A stretch of DNA of 64,000 nucleotides, from contig CM034550.1 in NCBI GenBank assembly GCA_020055645.1, positions 13,343,001-13,407,000 of the forward strand. Direction: 5' to 3'. This DNA is from Tomocerus qinae. Its lineage: Eukaryota > Arthropoda > Collembola > Entomobryomorpha > Tomoceridae. A model generated the notes under the pieces. That model saw only the letters and a program-made list of their open reading frames with translations. It did no database searches and was not told the origin of the DNA. The position numbers and the translations under genes were made by a program. Below are positions 1 to 34,383 of the stretch, piece after piece. Within the stretch, counting starts at the first letter, position 1. The number at the start of each line of letters is the position of its first letter.

Positions 1-3000
1 AGATTTCCGCTCGATTTATGGAGCCGAGTTGATAATTTCCAAACTTTGTAATGGTTTTGCCTTTAAATAATTTAAAATCATACTTGAATTGGAAAATGTA
101 TTTCAACAACTACCAAAGGAGGAACGTAGTTTGTAGTTAAGGGCGAATTGAGAACTGTAAGTCAACAATTATGGTTTTCCTCTATTAAATTAAGGAAATT
201 TCATTGGGTAAATAATATAAAAATTTAGATTGCCGCTCGATTTATAGAGCCGAGTTGATAATTTCCAAACTTTGTAATGGTTTTGCCTTTAAATAATTTA
301 AAATCATACTTGAATTGGAAAATGTATTCCAACAACTACCAAAGGAGGAACGTAGTTTGTAGTTAAGGGCGAATTGAGAACTGTAAGTCAACAATTATGG
401 TTTTCTTCTATTAAATTGAGGAAATTTCATTGGGTAAATAATATAAAAATTTAGATTGCCGCTCGATTTATAGAGCCGAGTTGATAATTTCCAAACTTTG
501 TAATGGTTTTGCCTTTAAATAATTTAAAATCATACTTGAATTGGAAAATGTATTCCAACAACTACCAAAGGAGGAAAGTAGTTTGTAGTTAAGGGCGAAT
601 TGAGAACTGTAAGTCAACAATTATGGTTGTCCTCTATTAAATTGAGGAAATTTCATTGGGTAAATAATATAAAAATTTAGATTGCCGCTCGATTTATAGA
701 GCCGAGTTGATAATTTCCAAACTTTGTAATGGTTTTGCCTTTAAATAATTTAAAATCATACTGGAATTGGAAAATGTATTTCAACAACTACCAAAGGAGG
801 AACGTAGTTTGTAGTTAAGGGCGAATTGAGAACTGTAAGTCAACAATTATGGTTTTCCTCTATTAAATTAAGGAAATTTCATTGTGTAAATAATATAAAA
901 ATTTAGATTGCCGCTCGATTTATAGAGCCGAGTTGATAATTTCCAAACTTTGTAATGGTTTTGCCTTTAAATAATTTAAAATCATACTTGAATTGGAAAA
1001 TGTATTTCAACAACTACCAAAGGAGGAAAGTAGTTTGTAGTTAAGGGCGAATTGAGAACTGTAAGTCAACAATTATGGTTTTCTTCTATTAAATTGAGGA
1101 AATTTCATTGGGTAAATAATATAAAAATTTAGATTGCCGCTCGATTTATACAGTCGAGTTGATAATTTCCAAACTTTGTAAAGGTTTTGCCTTTAAATAA
1201 TTTTAAATCATACTTGAATTGGTAAATGTATTCCAACAACTACCAAAGGAGGAACGTAGTTTGTAGTTAAGGGCGAATTGAGAACTGTAAGTCAACAATT
1301 ATGGTTTTCCTCTATTAAATTAAGGAAATTTCATTGGGTAAATAATATAAAAATTTAGATTGCCGCTCGATTTATAGAGCCGAGTTGATAATTTCCAAAC
1401 TTTGTAATGGTTTTGCCTTTAAATAATTTAAAATCATACTTGAATTGGAAAATGTATTTCAACAACTACCAAAGGAGGAAAGTAGTTTGTAGTTAAGGGC
1501 GAATTGAGAACTGTAAGTCAACAATTATGGTTTTCTTCTATTAAATTGAGGAAATTTCATTGGGTAAATAATATAAAAATTTAGATTGCCGCTCGATTTA
1601 TAGAGCCGAGTTGATAATTTACAAACTTTGTAATGGTTTTGCCTTTAAATAATTTTAAATCATACTTGAATTGGAAAATGTATTCCAACCACTACCAAAG
1701 GAGGAATGAAGTTTGTAGTTAAGGGCGAATTGAGAACTGTAAGTCAACAATTATGGTTGTCCTCTATTAAATTGAGGAAATTTCATTGGGTAAATAATAT
1801 AAAAATTTAGATTGCCGCTCGATTTATAGAGCCGAGTTGATAATTTCCAAAATTTGTAATAGTTTTGCCTTTAAATAATTTAAAATCATACTTGAATTGG
1901 AAAATGTATTTCAACAACTACCAAAGGAGGAACGTAGTTTGTAGTTAAGGGCGAATTGAGAACTGTAAGTCAACAATTATGGTTTTCCTCTATTAAATTA
2001 AGGAAATTTCATTGGGTAAATAATATAAAAATTTAGATTTCCGCTCGATTTATGGAGCCGAGTTGATAATTTCCAAACTTTGTAATGGTTTTGCCTTTAA
2101 ATAATTTAAAATCATACTGGAATTGGAAAATGTATTTCAACAACTACCAAAGGAGGAACGTAGTTTGTAGTTAAGGGCGAATTGAGAACTGTAAGTCAAC
2201 AATTATGGTTTTCCTCTATTAAATTAAGGAAATTTCATTGGGTAAATAATATAAAAATTTAGATTGCCGCTCGATTTATAGAGCCGAGTTGATAATTTCC
2301 AAACTTTGTAATGGTTTTGCCTTTAAATAATTTAAAATCATACTGGAATTGGAAAATGTATTTCAACAACTACCAAAGGAGGAACGTAGTTTGTAGTTAA
2401 GGGCGAATTGAGAACTGTAAGTCAACAATTATGGTTTTCTTCTATTAAATTGAGGAAATTTCATTGGGTAAATAATATAAAAATTTAGATTGCCGCTCGA
2501 TTTATAGAGCCGAGTTGATAATTTACAACCTTTGTAATGGTTTTGCCTTTAAATAATTTTAAATCATACTTGAATTGGAAAATGTATTCCAACAACTACC
2601 AAAGGAGGAACGTAGTTTGTAGTTAAGGGCGAATTGAGAACTGTAAGTCAACAATTATGGTTGTCCTCTATTAAATTGAGGAAATTTCATTGGGTAAATA
2701 ATATAAAAATTTAGATTGCCGCTCGATTTATAGAGCCGAGTTGATAATTTACAAACTTTGTAATGGTTTTGCCTTTAAATAATTTAAAATCATACTTGAA
2801 TTGGAAAATGTATTTCAACAACTACCAAAGGAGGAACGTAGTTTGTAGTTAAGGGCGAATTGAGAACTGTAAGTCAACAATTATGGTTTTCCTCTATTAA
2901 ATTAAGGAAATTTCATTGGGTAAATAATATAAAAATTTAGATTGCCGCTCGATTTATAGAGCCGAGTTGATAATTTCCAAACTTTGTAATGGTTTTGCCT

Positions 3001-5045
3001 TTAAATAATTTTAAATCATACTTGAATTGGAAAATGTATTCCAACCACTACCAAAGGAGGAACGTAGTTTGTAGTTAAGGGCGAATTGAGAACTGTAAGT
3101 CAACAATTATGGTTTTCTTCTATTAAATTGAGGAAATTTCATTGGGTAAATAATATAAAAATTTAGATTGCCGCTCGATTTATAGAGCCGAGTTGATAAT
3201 TTCCAAAATTTGTAATGGTTTTGCCTTTAAATAATTTTAAATCATACTTGAATTGGAAAATGTATTCCGACCACTACCAAAGGAGGAATGGAGTTTGTAG
3301 TTAAGGGCGAATTGAGAACTGTAAGTCAACAATTATGGTTGTCCTCTATTAAATTGAGGAAATTTCATTGGGTAAATAATATAAAAATTTAGATTGCCGC
3401 TCGATTTATAGAGCCGAGTTGATAATTTACAAACTTTGTAATGGTTTTGCCTTTAAATAATTTAAAATCATACTTGAATTGGAAAATGTATTTCAACAAC
3501 TACCAAAGGAGGAACGTAGTTTGTAGTTAAGGGCGAATTGAGAACTGTAAGTCAACAATTATGGTTTTCTTCTATTAAATTGAGGAAATTTCATTGGGTA
3601 AATAATATAAAAATTTAGATTGCCGCTCGATTTATACAGTCGAGTTGATAATTTCCAAACTTTGTAAAGGTTTTGCCTTTAAATAATTTTAAATCATACT
3701 TGAATTGGAAAATGTATTCCAACAACTACCAAAGGAGGAACGTAGTTTGTAGTTAAGGGCGAATTGAGAACTGTAAGTCAACAATTATGGTTGTCCTCTA
3801 TTAAATTAAGGAAATTTCTTTGGATAAATAATATAAAAATTTAGATTGCCGCTCGATTTATACAGTCGAGTTGATAATTTCCAAACTTTGTAAAGGTTTT
3901 GCCTTTAAATAATTTTAAATCATACTTGAATTGGTAAATGTATTCCAACAACTACCAAAGGAGGAACGTAGTTTGTAGTTAAGGGCGAATTGAGAACTGT
4001 AAGTCAACAATTATGGTTTTCCTCTATTAAATTAAGGAAATTTCTTTGGATAAATAATATAAAAATTTAGATTGCCGCTCGATTTATAGAGCCAAATGGA
4101 TAATTTCCAAACTTTGAAATGGTTTTGCCTTTAAATAATTTTAAATCATACTTGAATTGGAAAATGTATTCCAACAACTACCAAAGGAGGAACGTAGTTT
4201 GTAGTTAAGGGCGAATTGAGAACCCTAATTCAACAATTATGGTTGTCCTCTATTAAATTAAGGAAATATCTTTGGGTAAATAATATAAAAATTTAGATTG
4301 CCGCTCGATTTATACAGTCGAGTTGATAATTTCCAAACTTTGTAAAGGTTTTGCCTTTAAATAATTTTAAATCATACTTGAATTGGTAAATGTATTCCAA
4401 CCACTACCAAAGGAGGAACGTAGTTTGTAGTTAAGGGCGAATTGAGAACCCTAATTCAACAATTATGGTTGTCCTCTATTAAATTAAGGAAATTTCTTTG
4501 GGTAAATAATATAAAAATTTAGATTGCCGCTCGATTTATAGTGCCGAGTTGATAATTTCCAAACTTTGAAATGGTTTTACCTTTAAATAATTTTAAATCA
4601 TACTTGAATTGGAAAATGTATTCCAACAACTACCAAAGGAGGAACGTAGTTTGTAGTTAAGGGCGAATTGAGAACCCTAATTCAACAATTATGGTTGTCC
4701 TCTATTAAATTAAGGAAATATCTTTGGGTAAATAATATAAAAATTTAGATTTCCGCTCGATTTATACAGTCGAGTTGATAATTTCCAAACTTTGTAAAGG
4801 TTTTGCCTTTAAATAATTTTAAATCATACTTGAATTGGTAAATGTATTCCAACCACTACCAAAGGAGGAACGTAGTTTGTAGTTAAGGGCGAATTGAGAA
4901 CCCTAATTCAACAATTATGGTTGTCCTGTATTAAATTAAGGAAATTTCTTTGGGTAAATAATATAAAAATTTAGATTGCCGCTCGATTTATAGTGCCGAG
5001 TTGATAATTTCCAAACTTTGTAATGGTTTTGCGTTTAAATAATTA
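1..5045. repeat. 226-bp satellite array, about 22 copies
   Basis: A head-to-tail tandem array with period 226 bp: the start of the unit recurs at 1, 227, 453 and so on. The window opens inside it, so the array probably continues to the left. Copies are very similar and differ at a few diagnostic sites. The last few copies (about 4080-5030) form a separate subfamily with CCCTAATTC in place of TGTAAGTC and TTTCTTTGG in place of TTTCATTGG. The array breaks off at about 5045 inside a unit and passes directly into a different minisatellite. No reading frame of note crosses it. Confidence 0.97.
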
Positions 5046-6420
5046 ATGCAACTGTAACCGATTTTCATTTCCTTTTAATTTTAATAGTTATTATTAATCA
5101 ATTTTGATTTTCTTTTAACTTTGATAGTTAATATTAATCAATTTTGATTTTCTGTTGATTTTAATAGTCAACATTAATCTAATTTGATTTTCTGTTGATT
5201 TTAATAATCACATTATTCTATTTTGATTGTCTGTTGATTTTAATAGTCAGCATTAATTTATTTTGATTTTCTGTTGATATTAATAGTCAGCGTTAATCTA
5301 TTTTGATTTTCTTTTAATTTTGATAGTTAGTATTAATCAATTTTGATTTTCTGTTGATTTTAATAGTCACATTACTCTATTTTGATTGTCTGTTGATTTT
5401 AATAGTCAGCATTAATTTATTTTGATTTTCTGTAATATTAATAGTCAGCATTAATCTATTTTGATTTTCTTTTAACTTTGATAGTTAATATTAATCAATT
5501 TTGATTTTCTGTTGAATTTACTAGTCAACATTAATCTAATTTGATTTTCTGTTGATTTTAATAATCACATTACTCTATTTTGATTGTCTGTTGATTTTAA
5601 TAGTCAGCATTAATTTATTTTGATTTTCTGTTGTATTAATAGTCAGCATTAATCTATTTTGATTTTCTGCTGATTTTAATAGTCAACATTAATCTATTTT
5701 GATTTTCTGCTTATTTTGATGGTCAGCATTAACCTATTTTAATTTTCTGTTGATTTTGATAGCCATCATTAATTTGTTAATGTATCTTTTCCGGTATTAT
5801 TCTACCATAAATGTGCACACGGTCCCCTTTACTCAGGCGAGCTTCTGTTACGGCTTGCAGTAGGTTTTATACTCAATCACACCAACTTTAATTTTATTTT
5901 CAGTCAACAGTTATCTACTTTGGTTTTCTGTAGATTGTCATAGTGAACACAATTCTATGATTTTTTGTTGATTTTGATAGTGAACACAATTCTACGATTT
6001 TCTTTTGATTTTGATAGTAAACATTAATCTATTTTGATCTTCTGTTGATTTTTATTGTTAATCTTAATTTATTTTGAGTTTCTGTTGATTTTCATAGTCA
6101 ACAATTATCTATTTTAATTTTTAGTTTATTTTGATATTCAATCTTAACCAATTTTGCTTTTCTCTTGATTTTCAGTCAAGAATTGTCTACTTTGATTTTC
6201 CGTTGATTTTCATAGTAAACATTATTCTATGATTTTCTTTTGATTTTGATAGTGAAAATTAATCTGTTTTAATCTTTTGTTGATTTTCATTGTCAATCCT
6301 AATCTATTTTGAGTTTCTCTTGATTTTCATAGTCAACAATTATTTATTTTGATTCTCTGTTTATTTTCATAGTCAACGTTTATCTATTTTGATTTTGATA
6401 CTCAATATTAACCGATAAAT
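5046..6420. repeat. 40-bp minisatellite, family 1 (diverged)
   Basis: Imperfect tandem copies of a 40-bp AT-rich unit with core TTGATTTTAATAGTCA followed by CATTAATCTATTTTGATTTT. Copies vary by substitutions and small indels and are more diverged after about 5880. A hairpin module (5813-5868) interrupts the array. The unit shares its core (GAT-TTT-ATAGTCA-ATTAAT) with the two following families, so all three probably descend from one ancestral repeat. Confidence 0.85.
5813..5868 (+). repeat. Hairpin module, copy A
   Basis: A 56-bp sequence starting GTGCACACGGTCCCC. It contains a stem GGCGAGC / GCTTGCA around a loop TTCTGTTACG and ends in TAGGTTTT. It sits inside the 40-bp minisatellite and recurs at 6458, 8197 and 22008. 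Near-identity in different contexts marks it as a mobile or terminal sequence. A short 3' hairpin is typical of Helitron-class element ends, but I did not find a defined element boundary here. Confidence 0.75.
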
Positions 6421-6457
6421 ATGAAAACAAACCTATATCTAGTGTTCTACTAAAACT

Positions 6458-6513
6458 GTGTACACGGTCCCCTTCACTCAGGCGAGCTTCTGTTACGGCT
6501 TGCCGTAGGTTTT
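6458..6513 (+). repeat. Hairpin module, copy B
   Basis: Copy of the module with the full stem GGCGAGC / GCTTGCC (7 bp, one G-T pair) and the palindromic start GTGTACAC. It lies between minisatellite families 1 and 2. Confidence 0.8.
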
Positions 6514-6559
6514 AAGCTAAAGATGCGTTAATCAACGGGCTCTCCAATGATATCAATAT

Positions 6560-7408
6560 TTGGTTTTCATTATGTATTGACTTTCATGGTCAATATTAAT
6601 ACATTTTCATTATGTATTGACTTTCGTAGTCAATATTAATACATTTTCATTATGTATTGACTTTCATAGTCAATATTAATACATTTTCATTATGTATTGT
6701 CTTTCATAGTCAATATTAATACATTTTCATTATGTATTGACTTTCATAGTCAATATTAATACATTTTCATTATGTATTGACTTTCATAGTCAATATTAAT
6801 ACATTTTCATTATGTATTGACTTTCATAGTCAATATTAATACATTTTCATTATATATTGACTTTCATAGTCAATATTAATACATTTTCATTATGTATTGA
6901 CTTTCATAGTCAATATTAATACATTTTCATTATGTATTGTCTTTCATAGTCAATACTAATACATTTTCATTATGTATTGACTTTCATAGTCAATATTAAT
7001 ACATTTTCATTATGTATTGACTTTCATAGTCAATATTAATACATTTTCATTATGTATTGACTTTCATAGTCAATATTAATACATTTTCATTATGTATTGA
7101 CTTTCATAGTCAATATTAATATATTTTCATTATGTATTGACTTTCATAGTCAATATTAATATATTTTCATTATGTATTGACTTTCATAGTCAATATTAAT
7201 ACATTTTCATTATGTATTGTCTTTCATAGTCAATACTAATACATTTTTATTATGTATTGACTTTCATAGTCAATATTAATATATTTTCATTATGTATTGA
7301 CTTTCATAATCAATATTAATATATTTTCATTATGTATTGACTTTCATAGTCAATATTAATATATTTTCATTATGTATTGACTTTCATAGTCAATATTATC
7401 ATTAATAT
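6560..7408. repeat. 40-bp minisatellite, family 2 (homogeneous)
   Basis: About 21 nearly identical tandem copies of a 40-bp unit containing ATTATGTATTGACTTTCATAG followed by TCAATATTAATACATTTTC. TTGACTTTCATAGTCAA inside the unit is an imperfect palindrome. Much more uniform than the preceding family, which suggests recent amplification. Confidence 0.93.
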
Positions 7409-7935
7409 ATTTTGATTTTGTATTAATTATGATAGTCAATAATAATATATTTTGATTTTGTATTAATTATGATAGTCAATAATAATATATTTTGATTTTG
7501 TATTAATTATGATAGTCAATAATAATATATTTTGATTTTGTATTAATTATGATAGTCAATAATAATATATTTTGATTTTGTATTAATTATGATAGTCAAT
7601 AATAATATATTTTGATTTTGGATTAATTATGATAGTCAATAATAATATATTTTGACTTTGTATTAATTATGATAGTCAATAATAATATATTTTGATTTTG
7701 TATTGATTATGATAGTCAATAATAATATATTTTGACTTTGTATTAATTATGATAGTCAATAATAATATATTTTGATTTTGTATTGATTATGATTATGATA
7801 GTCAATAATAATATATTTTGATTTTGTATTGATTATGATTATGATAGTCAATAATAATATATTTTGATTTTGTATTGATTATGATTATGATAGTCAATAA
7901 TAATATATTTTGACTTTGTTTTAATTATGAAAATT
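7409..7935. repeat. 40-bp minisatellite, family 3
   Basis: About 12 copies of a 40-bp unit containing TTTTGATTTTGTATTAATTA and TGATAGTCAATAATAATATA. Three consecutive copies near 7780-7890 carry an extra GATTAT hexamer, lengthening the unit to 46 bp. It follows family 2 with no unique sequence between. Positions 7936-8100 hold more diverged remnants of the same core. Confidence 0.92.
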
Positions 7936-8196
7936 AATTAATGTTGACTATATGCTGATTTTCATAGTAAACATTAATCAATTTTGATTCTCTTGATTTT
8001 CATATTCAACAATTATCAATTCTGATTTTATGTTGATTTTCAAATGATATAGCTTCGTTTCCTTATAATATCAATGTCTGAATTTTAACTTTTAATGTGT
8101 CGTAGCTACATATATAAAGACTCAATTCTGAAAGTTTGTTCAAAATCCGTACGCTCGGTTTTGTGTTATGTGCCAGTACTTTACGTCTACCAAAAT

Positions 8197-8235: not shown

Positions 8236-8299
8236 ACCATTAAATCCATTTTTACCATTAAGTGCATTTTTAGCTCGCCTGATAAGGCAGCTTATAGAA

Positions 8300-8480
8300 T
8301 CGCACAGTCCGTCCGTCCGTCCGTGCGTCCGTGCGTCCGTTTACACGATAACTTTTGAAGACATTGATGGATTTCAACTAAACTTGGCAAAAACATTGCC
8401 TACGGACCTATGACAAAGCCTATTGAAAATGAACCACATTGGTCCATAGGTTGCTGAGATGCCGCGCGCTCACTTTGTCT
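8300..8480 (+). repeat. CCGT-rich microsatellite and adjoining block
   Basis: (TCCG/TGCG)n runs from about 8307 to 8340, followed by ACACGATAACTTTTGAAG and an AACTTGGCAAAA block. From memory, a CCGT/ACGG microsatellite next to tandem core repeats and short hairpin ends is a layout described for non-autonomous Helentrons (pearl/DINE-like elements). That link to the Helentron downstream is an inference. Confidence 0.6.
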
Positions 8481-8706
8481 TCATTTTGATAGTCAAAATG
8501 AAAATATGGCATTAAAGGGACATAAGAAGTTCAATTGTGCTTCCAACGGATTGTTAACGGGATAGTACAAAATATTAAATGCCGTAGATTGTGGTAGTTA
8601 ACATTATGCTATGAGTTTGTATTGATTTTGAAAGTGAAAAATAATTAATTTTCATTTTCTGTTAATTTAGATTATATATTTTTATAGCTTCAAATCAAAC
8701 GTCAAA

Positions 8707-9498
8707 ATGCCAAAAACAAGCAGAAAAAGCGTCGAATCTAGAAAAGCCAAGATGAGAGACAGTATGAAACAAAAAAGACTAGATCCGGAGCACAACGAAA
8801 AGGAAAAGTACAGAGACGTTGTCAGAAAGGCTCTACTAAGGACAAATGAAGATTTCCTTGACGAGGAAAGACAACAGGCTGCTGTAAGGATGGCAAAGAT
8901 GAGGGCTGATGAAGAAATTCTTGACGAGGAAAGAAAACGGGATGCTGCAAGGAAAGCATTGTTGAGGGCCGATGAAAAATTTCTTGAACAGGAAAGAAAA
9001 CGGGACGCCAGAAGGAAAGCATTGTTTAGGGCTGATGATGCATTTCTTGACATGGAAAGAAAAAGAGACGTTGCAAGGAAAGCATTATTGAGGGCCGAAG
9101 AAGAATTTCTTATTGAAGAAAGAAAACGGGACGTTGTGAGAAAGGCCTTGTTGAGGGCTGATGAAGAATTTCTAGACGAGGAAAGAAAACGGGATGCTGC
9201 AAGGAAAGCATTGTTGAGGGCCGATGAAGAATTTCTTGAACAGGAAAGAAAACGGGAAGCCGGAAGGAAGGCATTGTTGAGGATTGATGAAGAATTTCTT
9301 GAACAGGAAAGAAAACGGGAAGCCGGAAGGAAGGCATTGTTGAGGACTGATGATGCATTTCTTGACATGGAAAGAAAAAGGGACGTTGCAAGGAAAGCAT
9401 TATTGAGGGCCGAAGAAGAATTTCTTACTGAAGAAAGAAAACGGGACGTTATGAGAAAGGCCTTGTCAAGGTCCGATAAAACGTTTCTAGAAAAATAA
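8707..9498 (+). pseudogene. Helentron replicase, N-terminal repetitive coiled segment
   Basis: 263 codons of about ten tandem 23-residue repeats (69 bp each). The consensus core is RKALLRADEEFL followed by a charged E-R-K-R-D block. The alternation of Leu/Phe with Glu/Arg/Lys predicts a long charged alpha-helix or coiled coil. The start ATG at 8707 gives a basic leader. The segment ends at TAA (9496-9498), which falls exactly where the repeat consensus has Glu, and the same frame continues without another stop for 450 codons. The stop therefore looks like a single G-to-T nonsense change rather than a natural terminus. Many Helitron proteins have basic N-terminal helices; a uniform tandem array of this length is less usual. 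The 392-residue antisense ORF here is a by-product of the repeats. Confidence 0.75.
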
Positions 9499-10848
9499 CA
9501 CAAGTGTGATGTCTTGCGAAAGACTATCAAAAGGACGGATCCCGATTTTAAAAAACAGGAGCAGAACAGAAATAATGCTTTAAAAAAAGCTAAACGCAAT
9601 CTCGTGAATTGGGATGATTGTGCTAACGTATTTCTTGAAAACATTAAATGTGGACCAACTAATGTCTGTTGCTGCTGTAATGGTTTGTGGTTCCCGGATT
9701 CTATTCGCAAATACACTTTGGATAATCTTACAAAGAAAGGACTAAGCAAAACATTTCTCTTGAATGTTATAAACAATGAAAGTGGAGTATTGTGTTTCAC
9801 TTGCTGGAATAAGATAAACAGAGGAGAGATACCCAAACTGTCAGAATTCAATGGCTTCAAATATCCTGAAATTCCAGAGGTACTGAAGGATTTGACTCAA
9901 CTAGAGGAAAGACTTTGTGCATTAAGGCTTCCGTTTATGCAAATACGAAATTTAGGTGTAGGTAAATATGGATTTAAGGGCAATGTGATCAACATTTTAA
10001 ACACAATTGATTACACCGCAACTGTCCTTCCGAGAAAGTTCAATCAAAGCAGTGTTATTCAATTGAAATTAATGAGGCGGATGTGTTACAAGAATGCGTA
10101 CCTGTATGAAAGCATTAGACCTGCTAAAGTTTATAATGCTTGCAAGTACTTATGTACTACGGAGATTTACCTAGAAGAGCAAGTTACTTTAACTGATGAT
10201 TGGGAAAACAGATTGCTTGAAGAGAATCTTGATTTCATTGTTGATGAGGTCGACAGATCAACAGAACAAATTATCAAACATAACGAAAGCAATGATGCTG
10301 AACAAGAACCCGTAAATCCCGGCGGAAACGAGACACTTCTTTTTAGCATTGAACAGTTAAATGACAATGAGGCAATAAAATATGCTCCGGGAGAAAATAA
10401 AAGACCTCTGTCTTTGATTAATGACATGTATGCGGAAGAACATGCTTTCCCAACAATTTACTGTGGTGTGAAGAGAAAATTTAAAATTAAAGTCAGTTAC
10501 GGCGACATTGCAAAATCAGAGGTACGAAGATGCGACCGAAGAGGATGTACACCTTCAAAACTATTGTATTCATTCAAAGTTTTGCAAACGCACCAAGTAT
10601 CTAACATTATTTCCATTTGCCTACGCAAAAAGAAATGTGGCATTGTTACAGCTGCGGAACTCAAATCAACCGAATTCATTGACAACTTAGTACAACATGA
10701 TGATGGCTTCCGCATGCTGAAACAGATTAGATCGTCTCCAGCTTATTGGGAACAGAAGCAGAACAATCTAATGGCAATGATACGTCAGTTGGGTATCCCT
10801 ACTTTTTTATCACTTTGTCTGCCGCAGAAACACATTGGCCGGAACTGA
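9499..10848 (+). pseudogene. Helentron replicase, DUF6570-like segment
   Basis: It continues in the frame of the preceding segment after the in-frame stop and finishes the last 23-residue repeat. It then has a Cys cluster (VCCCCNGLW near residue 50, and CFTCW), like the zinc-binding N-terminus of Helitron replicases. The stretch LRLPFMQIRNLG-GKYGFKGNVINI resembles the DUF6570 region that normally precedes Rep. Near the 3' end it begins the Rep start motif (QLGIPTF) and then leaves frame at the T-run 10803-10808. The Rep motif resumes in the next frame, consistent with loss of one T from the run. A homopolymer sequencing error would look the same. Confidence 0.8.
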
Positions 10849-13800
10849 TTGTAATACTCAGTCTTGTTTTGGATAATGCGGTTGTAACCGAAAAAGAAGC
10901 GGTAGCTTTTCCTTACGAAAAAAAAGCAGACCTTATTCGACGGGACCCTATTACTTGCGCTCGATACTTCGACTGGCGTTTGAGACAATGGAAAAAATAT
11001 ATTCTGCTCTCTCATGGTGGTGCCTTCAACGGATATCCAGTAAAAGACTTCTTCTATCGGATAGAATTCCAACATAGAGGTTCACCTCATATGCATGGAT
11101 TGTTTTGGCTAGAAGGATCTCCTAAATTCAATGATTTAGGTGGGACTGAGATAAATGAAGACTGTATTAAGTTTATAGATCAATTTATACAGTGTGAAGT
11201 GAATGTTGAAAGCGTTATCCATCAGAGTCATAGGCATACAAATACATGTGAAAGGAAAACAAGGTCGGGGATCACTTGTCGTTTTGGGATGCCATATTTT
11301 CCAATGAAAACAACTAATATTTTCCTGCCTTTGCCAGACGATTTTCCAAAAAATACCAAATCAAAGTTGAATCAATTAAGTGTCCAGATTAAAGAATTGC
11401 TGACTGAATTGCATAAAAATAATAATACCGACATCAGTATTGACGAATTTATCAGTCTTTGTGGTATTGACGAAACGACATATTTACGATGTGTGAGACA
11501 AACTATCAAACGGCCAACCGTATTTTTAAAGCGAAACGTGAATGCGGTGTTTGAAAATGCATACAATTTGAAAATTGCAACTGTCTGGAGATCAAATATG
11601 GACATTCAATTTATACTAGACCCATATGCTTGTGCGAAGTACTGCGTATCCTATATTTCGAAATCTTGTCGTGGAATGTCAAAGCTTCTCAAAGCTGTTG
11701 TAGAAGATGTAGAATATGGCAATTCTTCCATTCAACATAAATTGAGAAAGGTGGCCAACGTTTTTTTAAATTCTACAGAAGTTTCAGCTCAAGAGGCTGC
11801 ATACACGATATTATGCATCCCTCTGAGCATGTGCAGCAGAAGTACTACCTTCATTCCAACTGGAGAACGGCATCAAAGAGTAAGGTTTGCAAAATCAATG
11901 GAAGAAATAGAACAGCTAAATCCAGATTCAACTGATGTGCTAGCGCCTGGTCTATTAGAACATTATTGTGAGCGACCAGTTGAACTAGAGAAACTTTGTC
12001 TAGCAGATTTTGCAGCATACTTTACGTTTTCGAAGTCAAAAAGAGGTTCTGCTTTTTCAAAGAAATTGAATGATGGAGACCAAAATGATGACGACATTGA
12101 AGAGGTCGAAGACAGTAATGAAGCAACTAAAATCTTTAAATTGCAGGACAATTCTGGCTATATTAGAGAAAGAGGTACAGCAAAGATTATCAGGTATCGA
12201 AGATATAACAGGTATTATGACCAGGATAATTACTTCCGTGAACAAGTGATGTTATACACCTCTTGGAGAGACGAAGACGAAGAGTTAATTTCGGTAGATA
12301 TCAAAAGCATATGCCATATTAACTTTCAAAGAATCGAATCGAAAAGGAAAGAGTATGAACAGCAGTCTGGTATTGAAGATATGGATTTAGAAGATATTGA
12401 GGATGAAAATGACGAAATCGGCCAATTAGAAAATGAGAAAGAAAGTATGATTTTGGATATCCCTAGCGAAAATTTACTAAATACTGCTGGTGATTTTGAC
12501 GACGAAAAATTGAAGACGAAAGTATTCAATATTCCGAATATTTTATCCAATGAAGATTACGCTGTTTTGATGAGGTCTTTAAATAAAGAACAAAGGAGAT
12601 ATATGTACCATACACTAAATTCTCTAAAAGTAAATGAAGATCCGTCTTATGAGTTTATAACAGGCGGAGCTGGTACAGGAAAGACGCACTTAATTAAAGC
12701 TATTGTGCAATCCTCTTGCAGATACCTTAACTCACTTCCTGGTGCAAATCCAGAATCTGTTAAAATACTTTTATGTGCTCCAACAGGAAAAGCAGCGTAT
12801 AATATAAAAGGAGCTACTTTACATGAAACATTTTGCCTACCCTTGAATCAATCAAGAGGTCAAGTTTCAAGACTAACCAACAATTTTAAGAATACATTGG
12901 AATGTAAGCTAAAGGATTTGAAATTGATAATCATTGACGAGGTATCAATGGTTAGTCTTAATATGTTCATGCAAATTGATAATCGGCTGAAACAAATATT
13001 TGGAAACAACAATTTGTTTGGAGGAAAAAGTATTTTACTATTTGGCGATTTTCACCAGTTTAAACCTGTTGGAGGGAAGTTTATATTTGATAAACTAAAG
13101 GATATACAGGCAATATCTGGCAACATGTTTTGGGAGCCTTTCAAATTTTTCGAGTTGGTACAAGTAATGCGACAAAAAGATGATCTCCGTTTTGCTAACG
13201 CTTTGAACAGAATGGCAATAGGTAAAATGCTTGAAGAAGATGTACTGCTTTTCAAAAGCAGGGAGATCACACGTTCTGCAGAGATTCCTTCAGAAGCCAT
13301 GCATCTTTATTATGATAATGCCAGCGTCGCAATTTACAACCAGAACGTTTTGGAGAGAATGACAACAGAGGGCATCGTTGCAAAAGCGAAGGACAGATGT
13401 CAAGGAAAAAATCAAAATGATAGCAACGCAATTTTGGAAAGTGCAAAGAATTTGAATCTTCGAGACAGTCAAGGGTTGCCCTATGAATTAACGTTAAAAG
13501 TGGAAGCCAAGTACATGATGACAGTGAATATTGACACTCATGATGGATTGGTGAATGGAGCATCCGGCGTTTTAAAGCACATCATATATGGAAATTTAGC
13601 CGACGGCACCAGAATTCCAGCAATATGTTTGATAGAATTCGATGCATCTGAAGTCGGACAAGAATGTAGAGCAGCAAACAAAAAGTTGCCTAATGTAGTT
13701 GCAAAGAACTGGACTCCAATAAAGACGACAAATAAAATTATAAAGAACTGGGAAGGAAGAAATATACAAGTGGTAAGAAGCCAGTTCCCTTTAGTACCTG

Positions 13801-14246
13801 CCGAAGCTATAACGATGCATAAGTCCCAAGGAGCAACTTATGGATCGGTAGCTGTTCATTTGCAAAAAGGCTTAACCAGAGCTGCTCTATATGTGGCGTG
13901 TAGCAGAGCCACAAAATTATCAGGATTATTTCTTGAAGGAAATTTTGTCCCCCCAGCACGACCTCTTGCATTTGATCCAGTAGAAATAGAAATGGCGAGA
14001 CTAAGAAATAACGGCGTCGTCTTCAACTTTCCTATTTCGTCCAATTTGTCTGAAGTTACAGCCAAAATCATGTTTCACAACATTCAAAGTCTCAACAGTC
14101 ATTTTAATGATATAAGAGTTGACGAACAATATCAAAACTTGGATGCCATTTTATTATGTGAAACTTGGACACTGGAAACTGATGCATATCTAATGCCGCC
14201 GACTGCGCCGATCAAGCAAGGAAGCCACACGGCATCTATGCAATGA
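10746..14246 (+). pseudogene. Helentron replicase, Rep (HUH/Y2), helicase and start of endonuclease
   Basis: This segment carries the catalytic core. Rep: FFITLSAAETHWPEL opens the domain, HRGSPHMHGLFW is the HUH metal site, and AKYCVSYISK supplies the two tyrosines that cut and join single-stranded DNA. Helicase (PIF1-like SF1): Walker A GGAGTGKTH near 12665, Walker B LIIIDEVSM near 12925, GDFHQFKPV near 13040, and the C-terminal TMHKSQGATY and YVACSRA motifs near 13815-13905. EEP endonuclease start: FHNIQSLNSH and LLCETW near 14075-14165. All catalytic residues visible here are intact. The frame is lost near 14200-14230 and the endonuclease continues in the next frame. Confidence 0.9.
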
Positions 14247-15478
14247 AAAATGACTCAACTTTTTATAAAATTGGCCAAATGCAGACATTTAGAAAATCGT
14301 TTTCTGGAGGTCTGGTCGAGTTTGGTTTGCTCAAAATTGATGATGTTGACATTCTTTATGGCTACAAATCACCTAAAGTAAAATCTACAGATTTCTTAAC
14401 ATTTCTATGTGATACACTGCACAATGTACTTACTGGACAAAAATTCATCGTTGTCGGAGATTTTAACATGGATGTTATGAAGCCATCGTCAGATCTTTTA
14501 CAGCTAATGGATAGTTTCAGATTATCTCTTGCCTGTAAAAAAGGCCAATTTTCAACAAATAGCAATACTCAAATTGATATATGCTTTAGCAATATATCAG
14601 CTTTACGTTGTTGGTACACTGAAAGTTACTTTAGCCATCATAAGCCCGTAATGATGACCTGGTCCGTTAAACAAGACGATACCGTGATCAATGATTTTAA
14701 CAGTTTATCAATCAAAGACGGAAAGTCTGAAGAAGTGAATTTTCAAATTGACGACAAAGGTACCGACAATAATTGTGAAGTACAGGCCGAAACATTTGGA
14801 GCAAACAATTACTCAGTTATCTTTAAAATTGGCAACATAGAAGGTGACCAGAAATCCTTGGGTACTTTACATAAAAAGCAATGGTTAGACGACAGAGTGA
14901 TAAATGCATATTCAAACTATCTGCTAATTACTATCGGTTCTTCAAAAGATATTATAGTAGATAGCTATTTCTTTCATTGCGACATCAGTGGCAATTATCA
15001 TTGTATTGAATCACTTTTTCCTGAAAATTTAATTACTAATAGAAGTTTATTAGAACAATCAACCCTCTACTTACCTTCAATTCATGTAGATCATTGGTTT
15101 CTTCTGAAAATAACTTTCAATTTCAAAGTAATCACGGTAATGGACTCCTTACCTGGTCACATTAATATTACTGACCATTTATTTCGATTGAAAACACATC
15201 TGTCAAATATACTTCATATTTCTGCCGACAGTTGGGAAGTCAATTTTGCCTTTCATAACAATATTCAAAATAATAGCTACGACTGTGGCTGTTTCCTCTT
15301 AAAATTCTTAGAACAGTCGCTACTTAATCGTAACATCTACGAAGTCGACTCCCAATCAGTTAGTAACTTCAGACAAGAAATAGGAAAGGTTTTATTAAAC
15401 AGTACCATGTCTGGTAGATCTTTTCTAAACCAGTATACTAGTATAAAAGAAATATTATATATTTGTTATAGCAAATAG
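14243..15478 (+). pseudogene. Helentron replicase, endonuclease C-half plus Ulp1-type peptidase
   Basis: The first about 150 codons finish the EEP endonuclease: FSGGLVEF, VVGDFNMD (catalytic Asp and Asn), TQIDICFSN, and SHHKPV (catalytic His). After a linker, residues of about 210-395 form a C48 (Ulp1/SENP-like) cysteine peptidase. KKQWLDDRVINAYSNYLL matches the WLND substrate-channel motif, DHWFLL carries the catalytic His, MDSLPG the Asp, and QNNSYDCGCFLL the Gln and Cys. The complete triad is present. The ATG at 14243 is probably not a real start, since coding similarity continues upstream in this frame (HGIYAMKND). Ulp1-like enzymes cleave SUMO or polyprotein-type substrates; its role in the transposon is unknown. 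Confidence 0.85.
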
Positions 15479-16196
15479 TTTAAAATCGGCAATGTACATA
15501 TGTGCCTTGCCTATAGTTTTATATTTACTAAAAAGTTTTGTTACTGTAAAATAGATTTGTTACTGTAAAAACTATCTGTAAAAATGATAGATAACATTGT
15601 GTAATATGATGTCAGAAATAAAGAATTATTTGAAACTTAATGGATGGTTATCAATTATAGTATTCTTAATTTTCTTGTACTGGAATACTAAATAAATGTA
15701 ATTGTTTTTGAATTAAAACTTACACCATAATTTGGTGCAAATTTCTTATAATTCAAATAACGACACTACGAAAGGTCTGACACAAATGAGGCATAAATAT
15801 ACCGTTTACAAGTTGGAGACAAGGCAATATATACATCATAATCACTATTCGAAATAACTATTTTTAGTTTCTTGACATGCTACATTTATAATATTATTTA
15901 TCATGGTTACTAAAGTCTACATATTTATTAATATTTTATTTATCTTGGTTACTAAAGTCTACATATTTATTAATATTTTACTAACTTTCTTGTTATTCGA
16001 ACTTCAACATAGTTGAGACAAGACGCGTCAAATTCCTCTCTGAAAAATTGTTTTACTTTTCCAAAGTTCGTTTTTGAGGGCCAGTGTACCTTACTAAAAG
16101 TAAATTTCTACTGTTTATCTGTGTTTTTCAAGTCTCATAGTGAGTATCCGGAGGTTAGCCTTTACTTTTGAATTTGTTTCCTCACCTCAGTACAGA
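15479..16196. other. Non-coding stretch after the Helentron
   Basis: Contains the probable polyadenylation signal of the Helentron (AATAAA near 15617), a small inverted repeat CACCA-TAATT-TGGTG near 15725, and a 42-bp direct duplication (ATGGTTACTAAAGTCTACAT at 15903 and its near-copy at 15945). The 5' UTR or promoter of the next gene should lie at the right end. No coding frame was recognised. Confidence 0.6.
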
Positions 16197-17282
16197 ATGA
16201 ACAAGAGACAAAGTGTTGCTACTTCTAAAGAGTCGAAGACACACTCGCTACAAGATGTGTTGAACCCGTCGGCAAACGATATTGAGAAGAGGTAAGTAAT
16301 TGTTTTCTACATAATAATTGAAAACCCCCACAAATTTCTTTTCTCAAATCTAAGCCAAAATGTAAATTTTGCTACGAAGGTAAACAATATTAATTTTTGT
16401 GACAGAACACCATTTTGGGAAGCAGCTGAACTTGATAGCGACGATGATCTCTTTTATTTCCCTCTGTAAGAACTCATAAATTTAAAAATGTGGTTTGGAT
16501 AAATAACGACTATGGCCGAGATTCAATAATAAAACGGCTTTACTATTTTCAGAAATGAAGTTGAATCAGATTCTTGTCTGGATAGATCGGCTCAAGCCGT
16601 GAATAATTCTGTTCTGGATAGTTCGGATCAAGCCGTGAATAGTTCTACTCTATCCGGAGACGATTTTACTCTTAACGGAAAAGGTTCTACCCAAGTCGGA
16701 GCGGGTTCCTGTAGTACAAACTACGTGGAAAAACCAGATTCGCTGAAGAGGTATCAGAAAGTAAATTTTATTTATTATTTAGACGTTGGCAATGCACTGA
16801 CAAAAAACTTATGCAATAGAACCTATGATGCCACTGAATTGGGAATTCAGAACATCAACCTTTCCGGAACTCGGTCGGAAATAAACAGAACTAAAGCAAT
16901 TTTGAGACAGATAAGCAGAAACGGTTGTCTCCCTGCCTTAAGCCCGGTGAAACGATTGAAAATCGCTGATAACAGACAAAGGGCCATTGATTTAAGGGTG
17001 TCAAAAACAAGAAGCGTACAGCAGATTCTACCGTCAGAGCCACCTTAATTTCCAAAATTCGTTGAAGACATACTGGATCTAGCTGAAATTGTGGAAAAAG
17101 AAGAGGAGGAAGACGAAAAATTGCTCCAAGCTTTGGCCTTATGCGAAATTGGGCAGAAGTCCAAAGATTCTTCAGACCCTCAGGAAGACATTCTGACAAC
17201 TCCGACAAAATGCAAGCGAACACGAGAGACGTGCATTGATGCTAATCTTTGCCTGAAAAGCAAATTACGATCTAAAAAATGA
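16197..17282 (+). CDS. Unrecognised spliced gene with an in-frame stop
   Basis: Exons are 16197-16291, 16406-16465 and 16553 onward, with consensus junctions (AG|GTAAGT, CAG, GTAAGA, TTTTCAG) and matching phases. The start ATG gives MNKRQSVATSKESKTHSLQD. The third exon contains a small internal duplication (CLDRSAQAVNNS / VLDSSDQAVNSS). The frame meets TAA at 17046-17048 after SEPP, then continues open for 77 more codons that look coding: an acidic run EKEEEEDEK followed by a basic tail ending KSKLRSKK at 17282. Polyadenylation signal AATAAA lies near 17410. Either the protein is about 217 residues, or a recent nonsense change has removed an acidic C-terminus, or a short intron was missed. 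I do not recognise the family. It is Ser/Asp-rich and probably nuclear by composition only. Confidence 0.6.
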
Positions 17283-23104: not shown

Positions 23105-25807
23105 TTTCTAATACTATGCGGCGTGCAAGTGGCAAAATAATAGAATAGAGAAAACCTTTAGCTTTACACTTACACTGAATGAATAGATCGTAGTGATGTA
23201 CAAAAGTGTACTGAAGAATGTAGAGAGTGAATGTAAATAAATCGAATGCAGAATAAATTATAACTCCATACTCAGAATTCAATCTGTAGTATAATGTATG
23301 ATGCGTAATGTTAGTTCGTATATAGTTTACTCTAGCATGTGTCCATGTGTATAATAAATAGATAACCAGTTTTAAGTTGTCGTTAAAAAATATTCATTTT
23401 ACTGTATCATAAACGTAAGAATATAGACAGAGTCTGTGTATAGGTAGAATTGATTTACATGCATTCTTGTTAGCCAAGGCTCATCCTGCTATTTAAATTC
23501 ATTCACTACTACACGTTAATAGATTCTACTTAAATCCTGGGATTTTTATGGAAGAAATACATGCAATGTCATGTCTTTGCTCAGGATTGCAATTATAAAA
23601 TATGACTATAATATATTACATCGCAGACAATATCATACGAGTAATATAATAACATATAGTTGAATCTAGAAGGAAAAGGATGTTTAACTAAAATTTTCAG
23701 TGTAAATCACCTGATAGCTTTAACAAAGAATTGGATGAATCATTGGATGCATTTAATCCATACAAATATTGATACAGTCTTATTCTTAATAATATTTTTG
23801 TCATCCCTCCACTTTTGATAACACATTTTAAATAAAACTTTGTACAAATTAAAGTCACATAACTTACATTTTACGGTAAGGAAGCAATATTTTTTTGTTT
23901 TATCAGTAGAAATACATTCCACCTTCATTTTGACATTGTTATGTCACGTAGCTGACACTGACGATTTATAAATACAATAGGTTTACGTGATTCTATTCAA
24001 GTCATATAATTTGACAAGCATTTTTATGTTGTGTGCGCTTGTAAATTCATGTTTTATCAGTCGGAGATGGATTATGATTATCACTTGATTGACACATTTT
24101 GTACAACTTCAATTTAAAGTGTCCAATTTAATTGTTCATATTTTCAATACCTCAGCAATTACTTTGTATTACCCTTTATTATCATTTCCTTACATACAGA
24201 TGTTTAACGTTTAACTATTGTATACACTATATTATGTACAGAGATCTTGATTTAAGACCCAGAGCGAGCGTGACAGTTAAGTGAATTCTGTCCTACCGGA
24301 GCTTACATTTCTACACTTGGCGCTGAATTATTTGCACTTTATTATTAATGCACTTGAAAATTCGCCAACGTAATTTTTATGATGCAGTTTAGATCATACT
24401 TGTAGGTTTAAATTGTTCCATTATATTACACAAAGTAATAGTTTGACATGTATTCGTTCTAAATGGAAGAATGTAAAAAACTAGTTCCGTTTTCAAAATT
24501 TATCTACATGCAGTATGCAGGTATTGCAGGTATAATAAAATCAGACAAAGAAATATTAAGTTATGACTGTATAATGTATGCGCAGTCGACAAAAGGAAAA
24601 ACTACCAAAAAGTCTATGCAATTCCAATGCACTTGGTTCTAAAAAAAACTCATAGTTTTGTATGTACAAATTGGAATAATAGAAATGTCACTGATGATGT
24701 TGCGTATAAAATATAAATTGTGTTTAGCATTGAAAACTCAAAAGCGAACTGATGAATCAAAACATTCAAATTATACCTATGAAATAAAGGTGTAAACTTA
24801 TTGCAAGTTGTAATAAAATATCTCTTTAGTCAACGCTACATTTAAGTTGCAATAAACGTTGTTTATGCTACACATTTATATAAAGTGCCACACCCTGAAT
24901 ATAATTTCAGGAATTGAATTTTTGGCCAGGATATTAATAGGTCATAAATGCACAAGTGTGAAAATATTTGCAATTTACATTTGTCTTGAGGAGAAATATG
25001 TATAGTTAATAGGAGAGTTTATAAATAATATTTGATTGAGTAAATGCAAAATACTTTTGTATTTTCACATAAAATGGCACACATTTTACATTGGTCAATA
25101 ATTGCACCGCTTACATCTATTCAGGTATGTCCGCCTGTTCTCCTTTTAGAACACATCGTTGAAAAACATGTAAAATAGATTCATTTTCCAATATTTAATA
25201 TTTACAATTTATGCAAAATACAAATTCTCAGTTGGCAAACAAAACATAACGATGTAAATGTACAATTGTGTACTTATATATCGTATGTTTAATCTGACGC
25301 AAATAGCACTAAAAGTAATCTCATCTAATTACAAATATGGGAGCAATACATCATCGCTTTGATTTGACATTACTTTTAAAAGCAAATATTATGCTGAGGA
25401 CCCTAATCAAGACTTCCTGTATTCTATTCTTATTATTTCATAATAAGAGAATCAAGAGTCTGAGTAAAATTTTTTGAAAATCACTTTGGATACGAGGTAT
25501 TTTAATTCAGAATCCCTCCCCTTCTCCTTGGAATAAATTGACACAAAACTGTATACCTTACAGTGGTACATAGTGATAATCGCTATAGAAGAATACTTTA
25601 GTTGGCCAATTTATTCTGAAAAGAAGGGGAGGGGAAAATGAGGGAAAAATGAAAAATGAGGGAAAAGACCCCAGACTACTGAGGACCCAACATTTGTCAA
25701 TTTGCCATAGATAAAAATTATCAACTCAAAAATAAATCCTGCCTACTATCAAGAATAATATGGATAATATATAGCTCATAAGAAATAAACTATCATAGTA
25801 TACTATC
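23105..25807. other. Non-coding stretch upstream of the ENPP gene
   Basis: 2.7 kb of AT-rich DNA with no recognised coding exon on either strand. An imperfect 27-bp inverted repeat (25514-25540 against 25607-25633, a polypyrimidine/polypurine stretch with an AATAAATTG end) could fold with a 66-bp loop. The right edge is the CTATC target duplication of the retrotransposon (25803-25807). Confidence 0.5.
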
Positions 25808-27050
25808 TGTTGTCGGTTGTCAGTAGTCCCCGAGATTCTTCTATAGCTGGCGAAGGACCACCCCAGTTGACAATTAAACTGAGGAAATTTATTTCTACAC
25901 TACTCTGCACTACTCAATTAGTCACAATTTCGAAACAGTATTTATGTCGAACGGAATGTGTAAGGTTTTATTGATACTTATACGAAGCCAATTACAACAC
26001 AAAATAGATATTCACTGAGCGTTCATCCACAAGCGTTCAGCCGTTCAGCGTTCAGCCGTTCAGCCTTTCTGTTATTTCACTCCTCTTGCTAGTGGATCAA
26101 CCGAATACCTGCAAGTTACAATCCCTACTCGATGTTCACAATACAAACAATTTCAATAGGTTTCAATAGAATGAAAAGGTTCAATTACAATAGAATTACA
26201 AAGAGAGCCACGATGTTACAAAGTTAGAGGGAGAAACACACTAGGTACTATTTAGCTACCTACTCGAAGTATTGCATACCTAAATCCGTAAACGGGATAT
26301 TCTCTCAACTCATTACGGCCACATGCCGACAATGTTACGGGAGAGAAAATCAACTAGACACAATTCCACCACAATCAACTTTGGCTGTCCGCCGTGTAAA
26401 TGCCCGACTTGAGTCCCTTATCGCAATAAGGCAAATCTCAAGCCTACCTGACTTTATTCAGTAGGCAAATACTTGGCGAACAGACAGCTCAAATGAGGTC
26501 TGTTCTCTCTTTTTACTAAATAGGCTCCACCCTTACTCTCAAGATTTTGCCATTCTCAATCTTTCTAACTTCTGTGACAAATAACATTACAGTTGGTCAA
26601 CTGCGATTATTGTTTGCCTGAGTTTAAACACAGTGTGTATTTTCCTACTTATTCTCTCCACTCTAATACAAAGGCTCAATTTTCTCATTGTCAACTTGCG
26701 TAATACAATTTTCATTTCATTGGATAAACGAAGATGAGCTGAGATTTTCTCTGACCAATGCCCACTTACGCGTGTAAGCTATTTACACGTGTCACAATTA
26801 ATTTCCCCCAGAAATCAATACAATTCCACTCTCAACTCATCTTGTCTATATAAATTTCTAGACATCCCTATACAATTCCAGACATTTTTCCAGACATAGG
26901 CAATTAAGTATATCATACTACATGACTCACACAAATACATTCACATTCTACTTCACACTACAATACAATACTAACATGAATAGAATTGAAACTGACCCTT
27001 AGTCCATTGTTACAATCTAAAAGGGCCTGTTCCCTTCGTTCACCACTACA
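25808..27050 (-). repeat. LTR 1 (3' LTR of the left copy)
   Basis: 1243 bp, TGTTGTCGG to CACTACA on the plus strand. Contains a short internal repeat (GTTCAGCC/GCGTTCAG near 26030-26065) and, on the coding strand, a TATATA motif near 26868 that could serve as promoter. The stop codon of the left Gag-Pol (27046-27048) lies inside its edge. Confidence 0.95.
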
Positions 27051-33000: not shown

Positions 33001-33072
33001 TCCATATTCTGGCTGTTCTCCTCTAATTCGACGGCTCTCTCGATCGCCTTTCATTCTCGAGAAGAAATTCAT
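27046..33072 (-). pseudogene. BEL/Pao Gag-Pol, left copy, two frameshifts
   Basis: Collinear with the intact right copy and nearly identical to it. The frame is broken twice. At about 29390 a C-run is one base shorter than in the right copy, ending the N-terminal 1241-codon frame inside the RT-RNase H connection. At about 27634 a C-run has five bases instead of seven, ending the second frame inside integrase. Both breaks are in homopolymers, so true mutation and sequencing error are both possible. Two further sites differ by clusters of three substitutions (30851-30861 and 31081-31087). As assembled, this copy could make Gag, protease and most of RT but no integrase. Confidence 0.92.
27051..27061 (-). 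other. Polypurine tract, left copy
   Basis: On the minus strand, AGAGGGGAGAA directly abuts the 3' LTR. This is the expected position and composition of the plus-strand primer of reverse transcription. It overlaps the end of the Gag-Pol frame. Confidence 0.75.
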
Positions 33073-33121
33073 GGGATTGTAACTTTATCTTTATTCAAAT
33101 TTCAAGATCCTAGATCCTTGA

Positions 33122-33138
33122 TCCGGCTCGAAGGACCA
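33122..33138 (-). other. Primer binding site, tRNA-Tyr, left copy
   Basis: TGGTCCTTCGAGCCGGA on the minus strand, two bases inside the 5' LTR edge. It is complementary to the 3' end of metazoan tRNA-Tyr, whose acceptor 3' strand is TCGAAGG with discriminator A and CCA. Confidence 0.85.
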
Positions 33139-33140
33139 GC

Positions 33141-34383
33141 TGTTGTCGGTTGTCAGTAGTCCCCGAGATTCTTCTATAGCTGGCGAAGGACCACCCCAGT
33201 TGACAATTAAACTGAGGAAATTTATTTCTACACTACTCTGCACTACTCAATTAGTCACAATTTCGAAACAGTATTTATGTCGAACGGAATGTGTAAGGTT
33301 TTATTGATACTTATACGAAGCCAATTACAACACAAAATAGATATTCACTGAGCGTTCATCCACAAGCGTTCAGCCGTTCAGCGTTCAGCCGTTCAGCCTT
33401 TCTGTTATTTCACTCCTCTTGCTAGTGGATCAACCGAATACCTGCAAGTTACAATCCCTACTCGATGTTCACAATACAAACAATTTCAATAGGTTTCAAT
33501 AGAATGAAAAGGTTCAATTACAATAGAATTACAAAGAGAGCCACGATGTTACAAAGTTAGAGGGAGAAACACACTAGGTACTATTTAGCTACCTACTCGA
33601 AGTATTGCATACCTAAATCCGTAAACGGGATATTCTCTCAACTCATTACGGCCACATGCCGACAATGTTACGGGAGAGAAAATCAACTAGACACAATTCC
33701 ACCACAATCAACTTTGGCTGTCCGCCGTGTAAATGCCCGACTTGAGTCCCTTATCGCAATAAGGCAAATCTCAAGCCTACCTGACTTTATTCAGTAGGCA
33801 AATACTTGGCGAACAGACAGCTCAAATGAGGTCTGTTCTCTCTTTTTACTAAATAGGCTCCACCCTTACTCTCAAGATTTTGCCATTCTCAATCTTTCTA
33901 ACTTCTGTGACAAATAACATTACAGTTGGTCAACTGCGATTATTGTTTGCCTGAGTTTAAACACAGTGTGTATTTTCCTACTTATTCTCTCCACTCTAAT
34001 ACAAAGGCTCAATTTTCTCATTGTCAACTTGCGTAATACAATTTTCATTTCATTGGATAAACGAAGATGAGCTGAGATTTTCTCTGACCAATGCCCACTT
34101 ACGCGTGTAAGCTATTTACACGTGTCACAATTAATTTCCCCCAGAAATCAATACAATTCCACTCTCAACTCATCTTGTCTATATAAATTTCTAGACATCC
34201 CTATACAATTCCAGACATTTTTCCAGACATAGGCAATTAAGTATATCATACTACATGACTCACACAAATACATTCACATTCTACTTCACACTACAATACA
34301 ATACTAACATGAATAGAATTGAAACTGACCCTTAGTCCATTGTTACAATCTAAAAGGGCCTGTTCCCTTCGTTCACCACTACA
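33141..34383 (-). repeat. LTR 2 (shared central LTR)
   Basis: 1243 bp, the same length as LTR 1 and with no difference I could see. It serves as the 5' LTR of the left copy and the 3' LTR of the right copy. The adjoining bases are element internal sequence on both sides, with no target duplication. Confidence 0.95.

Follow-up and report, generated by a model that had tools for sequence, protein, structure and literature searches.

A Helentron family in the genome of Tomocerus qinae appears to encode a replicase in which the Rep, helicase and AP-type endonuclease domains are followed by an Ulp1 domain, and the latter is predicted to act as an exchangeable deconjugase of ubiquitin-like proteins that is tethered to the replicase. 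We place the probability of this reading at roughly 0.6, with both the activity and the substrate of the peptidase being predictions. The window, as the whole analysed stretch of 64,000 nucleotides is termed here, contains one copy of the element on the plus strand (approximately 8.7-15.5 kb), the ORFs of which are spread over three frames (Table 1). Their domains are ordered as an N-terminal repeat region, DUF6570, Rep (Helitron_like_N), PIF1 helicase, AP-type endonuclease and C48 peptidase.

Table 1. Features of the Helentron copy and its upstream flank in the window
Feature	Position	Strand	Basis
AT-rich minisatellite, ~40-base unit	5061..8042	.	Tandem repeat search
~320-base block	8267..8584	.	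Comparison of the surroundings of the copies
N-terminal part of replicase, approximately ten 63-base repeats, charged RKALLRADEEFLDEERKRD-like units	8707..9495	+	ORF list
In-frame stop breaking the window copy	9496..9498	+	ORF list and sequence
ORF, Cys-rich region and DUF6570 (~9820-10188)	9499..10848	+	PF20209, E 1.1e-16
ORF, HUH Rep (HRGSPHMH, YACAKY) and PIF1-type helicase (~12579-13211)	10731..14246	+	PF14214, E 4.5e-16; PF05970, E 1.6e-28; motifs
AP-type endonuclease, split by frame change near 14.2 kb; VGDFN, IDICFSN, SHHKP	14049..14668	+	Helentron-derived profile
Open frame, second half of endonuclease, linker, Ulp1 and stop codon; 431 codons	14183..15478	+	ORF list, Pfam
Polar linker between endonuclease and Ulp1	14669..14839	+	No Gly-Gly
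Ulp1/SENP-type cysteine peptidase (C48), QWLDD and His, Asp, Gln, Cys	14840..15475	+	Pfam, solved-structure matches, copy comparison
AATAAA, possible poly(A) signal, 139 bases 3' of the stop codon	15617..15622	+	Sequence

The N-terminal part of the replicase includes a tandem repeat (8846-9448) with a period of 63 bases and 9.6 copies. An HUH Rep with two tyrosines is present, with HRGSPHMH and YACAKYCVSY as its motifs, and the PIF1-type helicase shares its frame. The C-terminal AP endonuclease was recognised with a Helentron-derived profile, which matches residues 1787-1977 of the read-through, while the Pfam models remain below their cut-offs (PF14529, 20.6 bits with a cut-off of 27.4). The last ORF terminates with a TAG codon (15476-15478). 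The first-pass annotation had the same protein continuing from the Rep, helicase and endonuclease into the C48 domain. This holds for the second half of the endonuclease, the linker and the Ulp1 domain, which share one frame, but the remainder is split in the window copy by one stop and two frame changes (near 10.8 and 14.2 kb), all of them upstream of Ulp1 and the second frame change falling inside the endonuclease. None of the 25 longest of 93 inverted pairs provided a convincing pair of Helentron ends, and the copies are embedded in repeats. An Rfam search of the window returned no match, nor did the window pieces match the OTU (PF02338) or VTD (PF04843) families at E 0.1.

Comparison with known peptidases confirmed that the terminal region (14840-15478) encodes a SENP/Ulp1-type cysteine peptidase. 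The Peptidase_C48 profile (PF02902) matches the ORF at E 5e-9, with 36.7 bits against a cut-off of 20.7, and the codons for the catalytic His (15092-15094), Asp (15143-15145), Gln (15266-15268) and Cys (15284-15286) align with those of known peptidases. Both results agree with the first-pass annotation, which had described a complete Ulp1-type peptidase and proposed this profile search as a check. The best relatives among solved structures, judged by sequence, are SENP5 (E 2.9e-8), SENP3, SENP1 and SENP2 (to E 1.7e-5), and yeast Ulp1 was matched at E 5.5e-4 in the same comparison. In SENPs, the WL-D stretch and the Trp next to the catalytic His shape the channel for Gly-Gly, and both QWLDD and the Trp following the catalytic His are found in the window domain. 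The 266 codons between the end of the endonuclease (14678) and the stop codon are free of stops, with 17-26 stops in each of the other five frames. A chance open frame was rejected, as none of 20,000 simulated first-order sequences remained open (mean of 18 stops). A single-sequence structure model of the domain reached a pLDDT of only 33.7, so that a cysteine-protease fold is predicted from the sequence only. When the Ulp1 part alone was compared with the protein database, no relative was observed among 848 candidates at E 0.001 or among 754 candidates at E 10, and scans of viral and prokaryote contigs revealed no relative.

A search of the 334 Mb genome with the Ulp1 domain returned 23 matches, comprising 13 strong and 10 weak ones (23-28% identity). 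Three of the strong matches share 91-100% identity with the window domain (subfamily A), while ten rows, corresponding to approximately nine places, share 48-54% (subfamily B), the two subfamilies being approximately 50% identical in Ulp1. Besides the window, nine strong places (L009-L017) and seven of the ten weak ones (L018-L024) were examined. The strong fragments at C1:79.88 Mb and at C9:232.6 kb lie outside these nine, and the helicase search listed no match adjoining either of them. All ten copies compared (the window and the nine strong places) contain the endonuclease, with stops in that of L010, a whole or decayed Ulp1 domain and, upstream on the same strand, the helicase, and the same domain order occurs on contigs C1, C2, C3, C5, C7 and C9. 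Among the matches listed, Ulp1 accompanies 10 of the 11 helicase places with at least 74% identity; the exception (C10:203458) has a helicase match over 155 of 463 residues and no Ulp1 match. These counts are lower bounds, as the helicase search scored 92 of 155 candidates.

One copy, L009, comprises a single frame of 2197 codons (2181 from the first Met) encoding, in order, DUF6570, Helitron_like_N, PIF1, Exo_endo_phos_2 (19.6 bits, below the cut-off) and C48. It is open through all domains, including the catalytic Cys, with the last ~34 residues replaced after the catalytic core. In L011, 1614 open codons run from inside the Rep domain through the whole of Ulp1. The C48 profile scores 33.8 bits in L009 and 35.6 bits in L011; no match was listed for L017, in which the frame is cut off at the catalytic His. 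In six of the ten copies (the window, L009, L011, L013, L014 and L015), one frame covers both the second half of the endonuclease and the catalytic core of Ulp1. Two of the six, L013 and L014, do not differ in any of the endonuclease or Ulp1 codons compared and may thus represent one event. In L010, L012, L016 and L017 there is a break within Ulp1 or ahead of it. None of the ten is open from the first Met to a complete C-terminus, and all except L009, the window copy included, contain at least one break. The distance between SHHKP of the endonuclease and WLDD of Ulp1 is 82 residues in the window and 83 in subfamily B. The view that Ulp1 is integral to a Rep-helicase-endonuclease replicase is thus upheld by all nine further copies and by the frame of L009, which is open across all domains.

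Substitution rates were estimated with a Nei-Gojobori script on codons of the window and the fetched copies. In Ulp1, subfamilies A and B differ at proportions of 0.72-0.82 of synonymous (pS) and 0.265-0.322 of non-synonymous sites (pN), so that synonymous sites are saturated between them and protein changes are not. Elsewhere, pN between the subfamilies is 0.12-0.14 (Rep), 0.13-0.16 (helicase) and 0.19-0.24 (endonuclease half), the Ulp1 domain evolving faster than Rep and helicase. Within subfamily A the Ulp1 dN/dS ratios of the three pairs are 0.25, 0.26 and 0.31, and within subfamily B, leaving L016 aside, they range from 0.21 to 0.52 (14 pairs, the fifteenth being identical). L016 gives 0.53-1.05 against the other B copies, in line with decay, and is the copy in which the catalytic tetrad is altered (Asp and Gln changed, Cys unaligned). 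The tetrad codons are retained in the window and in eight of the nine other copies, including L012 and L017, which yet contain a stop or gap inside the domain, while the SENP-like front half (QWLDD to VINAY) is retained in all ten. Together with the retained tetrad, the dN/dS ratios indicate that Ulp1 is being preserved, under a looser constraint than Rep and helicase. The sequences thus show a domain fused in frame and shared by two diverged subfamilies, which retains its catalytic residues and evolves under purifying selection.

Tandem repeats surround many of the copies. Minisatellite arrays similar to that upstream of the window copy occur in seven of nine 10-kb stretches around other copies, in either orientation, and the ~320-base block is found, again in either orientation, in five of the nine stretches and in the neighbourhood of L015. 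In the window, the minisatellite adjoins a satellite array (1-5044; 226-base unit, 22 copies at 96%), while beside B copies on C2 and C3 (L028 and L029) a satellite with a period of ~182 bases lies 3' of the coding region, followed on C2 by an inverted minisatellite and the 320-base block. It is as if the tandem arrays were part of these elements, or hot spots beside them. Downstream of the window copy is a short, spliced-looking gene (~16199-17048), the ORF of which (16533-17048) has no Pfam match; the region 15889-16607 is also found beside L010 at 80% and may therefore belong to the element. Further downstream (25807-41724), two BEL/Pao-like LTR retroelement bodies stand in tandem, seemingly with a common LTR; 8.6 kb is repeated at 99.86%, approximately 1.25 kb is present three times and the minus-strand ORFs (27046-33084) appear gag-pol-like by eye. 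Among the weak Ulp1 matches, L018, L019, L020, L021 and L024 are C48-containing genes with a length of 393-595 codons, which form two related groups. Pfam recognises the C48 domain in L018 and L020, and no further family in these two at E 0.01; in the others the domain was assigned by similarity. They perhaps represent another transposon with an Ulp1 gene. L023 contains two adjacent minus-strand ORFs (500-2681), each with its own C48 domain.

A second Helentron family in this genome, with ~43% helicase identity, occupies at least 15 places with the same two-piece helicase pattern. Two of its copies, read in part, each contain a 444-codon ORF with an endonuclease match ending at 436, and no Ulp1 match was observed at E 1 in any of their plus-strand frames of at least 120 codons. 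The plain Rep-helicase-endonuclease form is therefore also present in T. qinae, and Ulp1 is an added module of the window's family. The first-pass annotation had reasoned that Ulp1 might be a chance neighbour if related Helentrons stop after the endonuclease; this is true of the two copies of the more distant family and false for the nine closer copies.

A search with the region from Rep to the end of the replicase returned 595 proteins, the best 120 of which were examined; the endonuclease profile matches 103 of the 120. In four of these best 120 (P0029, P0034, P0035 and P0036), C48 directly follows the helicase with no endonuclease match. The window Ulp1 aligns with a profile of the four over 158 columns with the catalytic residues in register (E 3e-6 for a search space of 1000), a result that none of 200 shuffles equalled. 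At the same position, the best match, Folsomia P0001, ends in a truncated Ulp1-like stretch (E 3e-5); this protein is absent from the Pfam C48 matches at E 1. P0044 carries an N-terminal Ulp1-like domain, which with 16.9 bits falls short of the cut-off of 20.7 and to which a stretch of P0070 is similar by profile only. Behind its endonuclease, P0057 has an Ulp1-like tail that scores only 13.4 bits with Pfam; against the profile built from P0044 and P0070 the score of this tail rises to 101 bits, which indicates that one kind of protease sits at either end. The first-pass annotation had suggested a survey for the five-domain order in one frame; besides L009 in the same genome, the order was observed among the best 120 of 595 in P0057 alone, with an Ulp1 of a different kind.

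Of 22 tails extracted from behind the endonuclease, ten were scanned for protease families. OTU domains were identified in P0002 and P0064 (above the cut-off) and in P0015 (below it), USP (C19) domains in P0032 and P0048 (above) and in P0025 (below), and three of the ten (P0006, P0013 and P0071) showed no protease family match. A USP tail is also indicated in P0077 by the database's own Pfam label and in P0062 by eye only; no report of USP-tailed Helentron replicases was found in the open-access literature. The tail of P0040, which resembles Ulp1 by eye, was rejected as no better than shuffles. In the Ulp1 tree, P0057 together with P0044 is separated from all others at 100/99, albeit on long branches. 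In the Rep-helicase tree, the window stands beside Folsomia P0001 with a support of 87, marked as a possible meeting of long branches, and apart from the four Rep-helicase-C48 proteins; this tree was not relied on. The earlier remark that Ulp1 after the endonuclease is not the standard arrangement stands in so far as the published Helentrons, in the texts available, carry OTU or VTD, but is too narrow, since the C-terminal end of related Helentrons carries several ubiquitin-family proteases.

HUH Rep proteins bind DNA covalently through a tyrosine during rolling-circle transfer. SUMO-RNF4 is described as driving the removal of proteins crosslinked to DNA (PMC8441304). The Ulp1 domain may be an active isopeptidase for SUMO or another modifier ending in Gly-Gly, which the replicase would hold at the place of transposition. 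It might there strip tags from the replicase covalently bound to DNA during transfer, or from nearby chromatin or repair proteins, and such stripping could save the reaction from being cut short by host clearance or silencing. The Ulp1 domain would then be one among several interchangeable ubiquitin-family proteases carried by Helentrons. The VTDs of zebrafish Helentrons are reported as active deubiquitinases which react with ubiquitin and partly with NEDD8 probes, and not with SUMO probes (PMC9741609), so that a SUMO target should not be assumed for every Helentron protease.

The first-pass annotation had proposed autoprocessing alongside the removal of SUMO-like marks, with the peptidase cutting the replicase into Rep-helicase, endonuclease and protease pieces. 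Clan CE does include polyprotein proteases, such as adenain. For the OTU proteases of Helentrons, the text available proposes a cleavage role (PMC4067079). Autoprocessing nevertheless appears improbable here, given that Gly-Gly is absent from the endonuclease-Ulp1 linker in five of five copies and from the helicase-endonuclease linker in two of two, an argument weakened by the possibility that the cleavage specificity of a diverged domain differs, and that SENPs are the closest solved relatives. Removal of SUMO-like marks is, on the sequence evidence, the more likely activity. It is also doubtful that the domain acts mainly by binding, as a SUMO-directed tether to SUMO-rich places such as repair foci or heterochromatin with catalysis secondary; the front half conserved in every copy would suit this role, but a pure binding module need not keep the four catalytic codons, as nine of the ten copies do. 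That Ulp1 is a captured host gene fragment, carried as a passenger without a transposon function, might be suggested by the described tendency of Helitrons to capture ORFs (PMC6431247) and by the decay of copies such as L016, but is largely refuted, and quite unlikely, because both subfamilies kept the frame, the spacing and the tetrad despite saturated synonymous sites. Several C48 genes without Helentron domains exist in this genome, some in multiple copies (L018-L021, L023 and L024), but a union of such a separate gene with a Helentron by chance or through misassembly has a negligible probability: the nine further copies with endonuclease followed by Ulp1 rule it out, the order recurs on six contigs and identity to the other C48 genes is no more than 23-28%.

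The occurrence of a SENP-like member, together with relatives that have switched protease class at a single position, points to a shared need rather than one captured gene. We tentatively suggest, as a possibility less likely than the reading itself, that the end of the replicase is an exchangeable slot for deconjugases (OTU, USP and at least two kinds of Ulp1; the opposite end likewise holds VTD and one of the Ulp1 kinds), which may have been refilled many times because the covalent Rep-DNA bond draws clearance driven by SUMO or ubiquitin; the Ulp1 domain here would keep the Rep-DNA complex unmarked. If true, Helentrons would represent natural experiments in evading the repair of DNA-protein crosslinks. 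The ubiquitin-family proteases described for rolling-circle transposons in the accessible texts are OTU and VTD. The present elements offer a testable set, with one replicase scaffold, several deconjugases and a single class of predicted substrates, either the covalent Rep-DNA complex or silencing factors that depend on SUMO.

In the available portions of the published accounts, OTU and VTD are described in Helentrons and Ulp1 in Ginger1, Mutator and Crypton elements (PMC4067079, PMC9741609, PMC3212892, PMC2836005, PMC10175614, PMC5240378, PMC13317346, PMC4289320, PMC6431247). No report of Ulp1 in a Helitron or Helentron was found in the open-access literature, as far as these texts extend, and such elements may be recorded in Repbase. 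The OTU Helentrons (PMC4067079, Mob DNA 2014) similarly combine a Rep-helicase-AP endonuclease replicase with a ubiquitin-family cysteine protease, but this is an OTU rather than an Ulp1 and is described there as encoded in additional ORFs. The VTD (herpes tegument-type) Helentrons (PMC9741609, Nat Commun 2022) have a deubiquitinase within the replicase frame, as here, that is active in zebrafish elements; it differs in its fold and in the probes with which it reacts, and the word Ulp1 does not occur in the available text. Ginger1 (PMC2836005, Mob DNA 2010) is reported to carry OTU or Ulp1 as C-terminal alternatives on the same transposase, but is an integrase-type cut-and-paste element, and this source, in the part available, names Ulp1 for Mutator and OTU, not Ulp1, for Helitron. 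Ulp1-type peptidases on DNA transposons are also described for the oomycete Cryptons (PMC3212892, Mob DNA 2011), which are tyrosine recombinase elements with the C48 of CryptonS on an additional protein, and for the KIU-carrying Vandal elements (PMC13317346, Genome Biol 2026), which are MULEs with KIU on one of three genes. The SENP/Ulp1 SUMO proteases share the catalytic tetrad and the WL-D and HW core motifs with the window domain, but are cellular enzymes with low identity to it.
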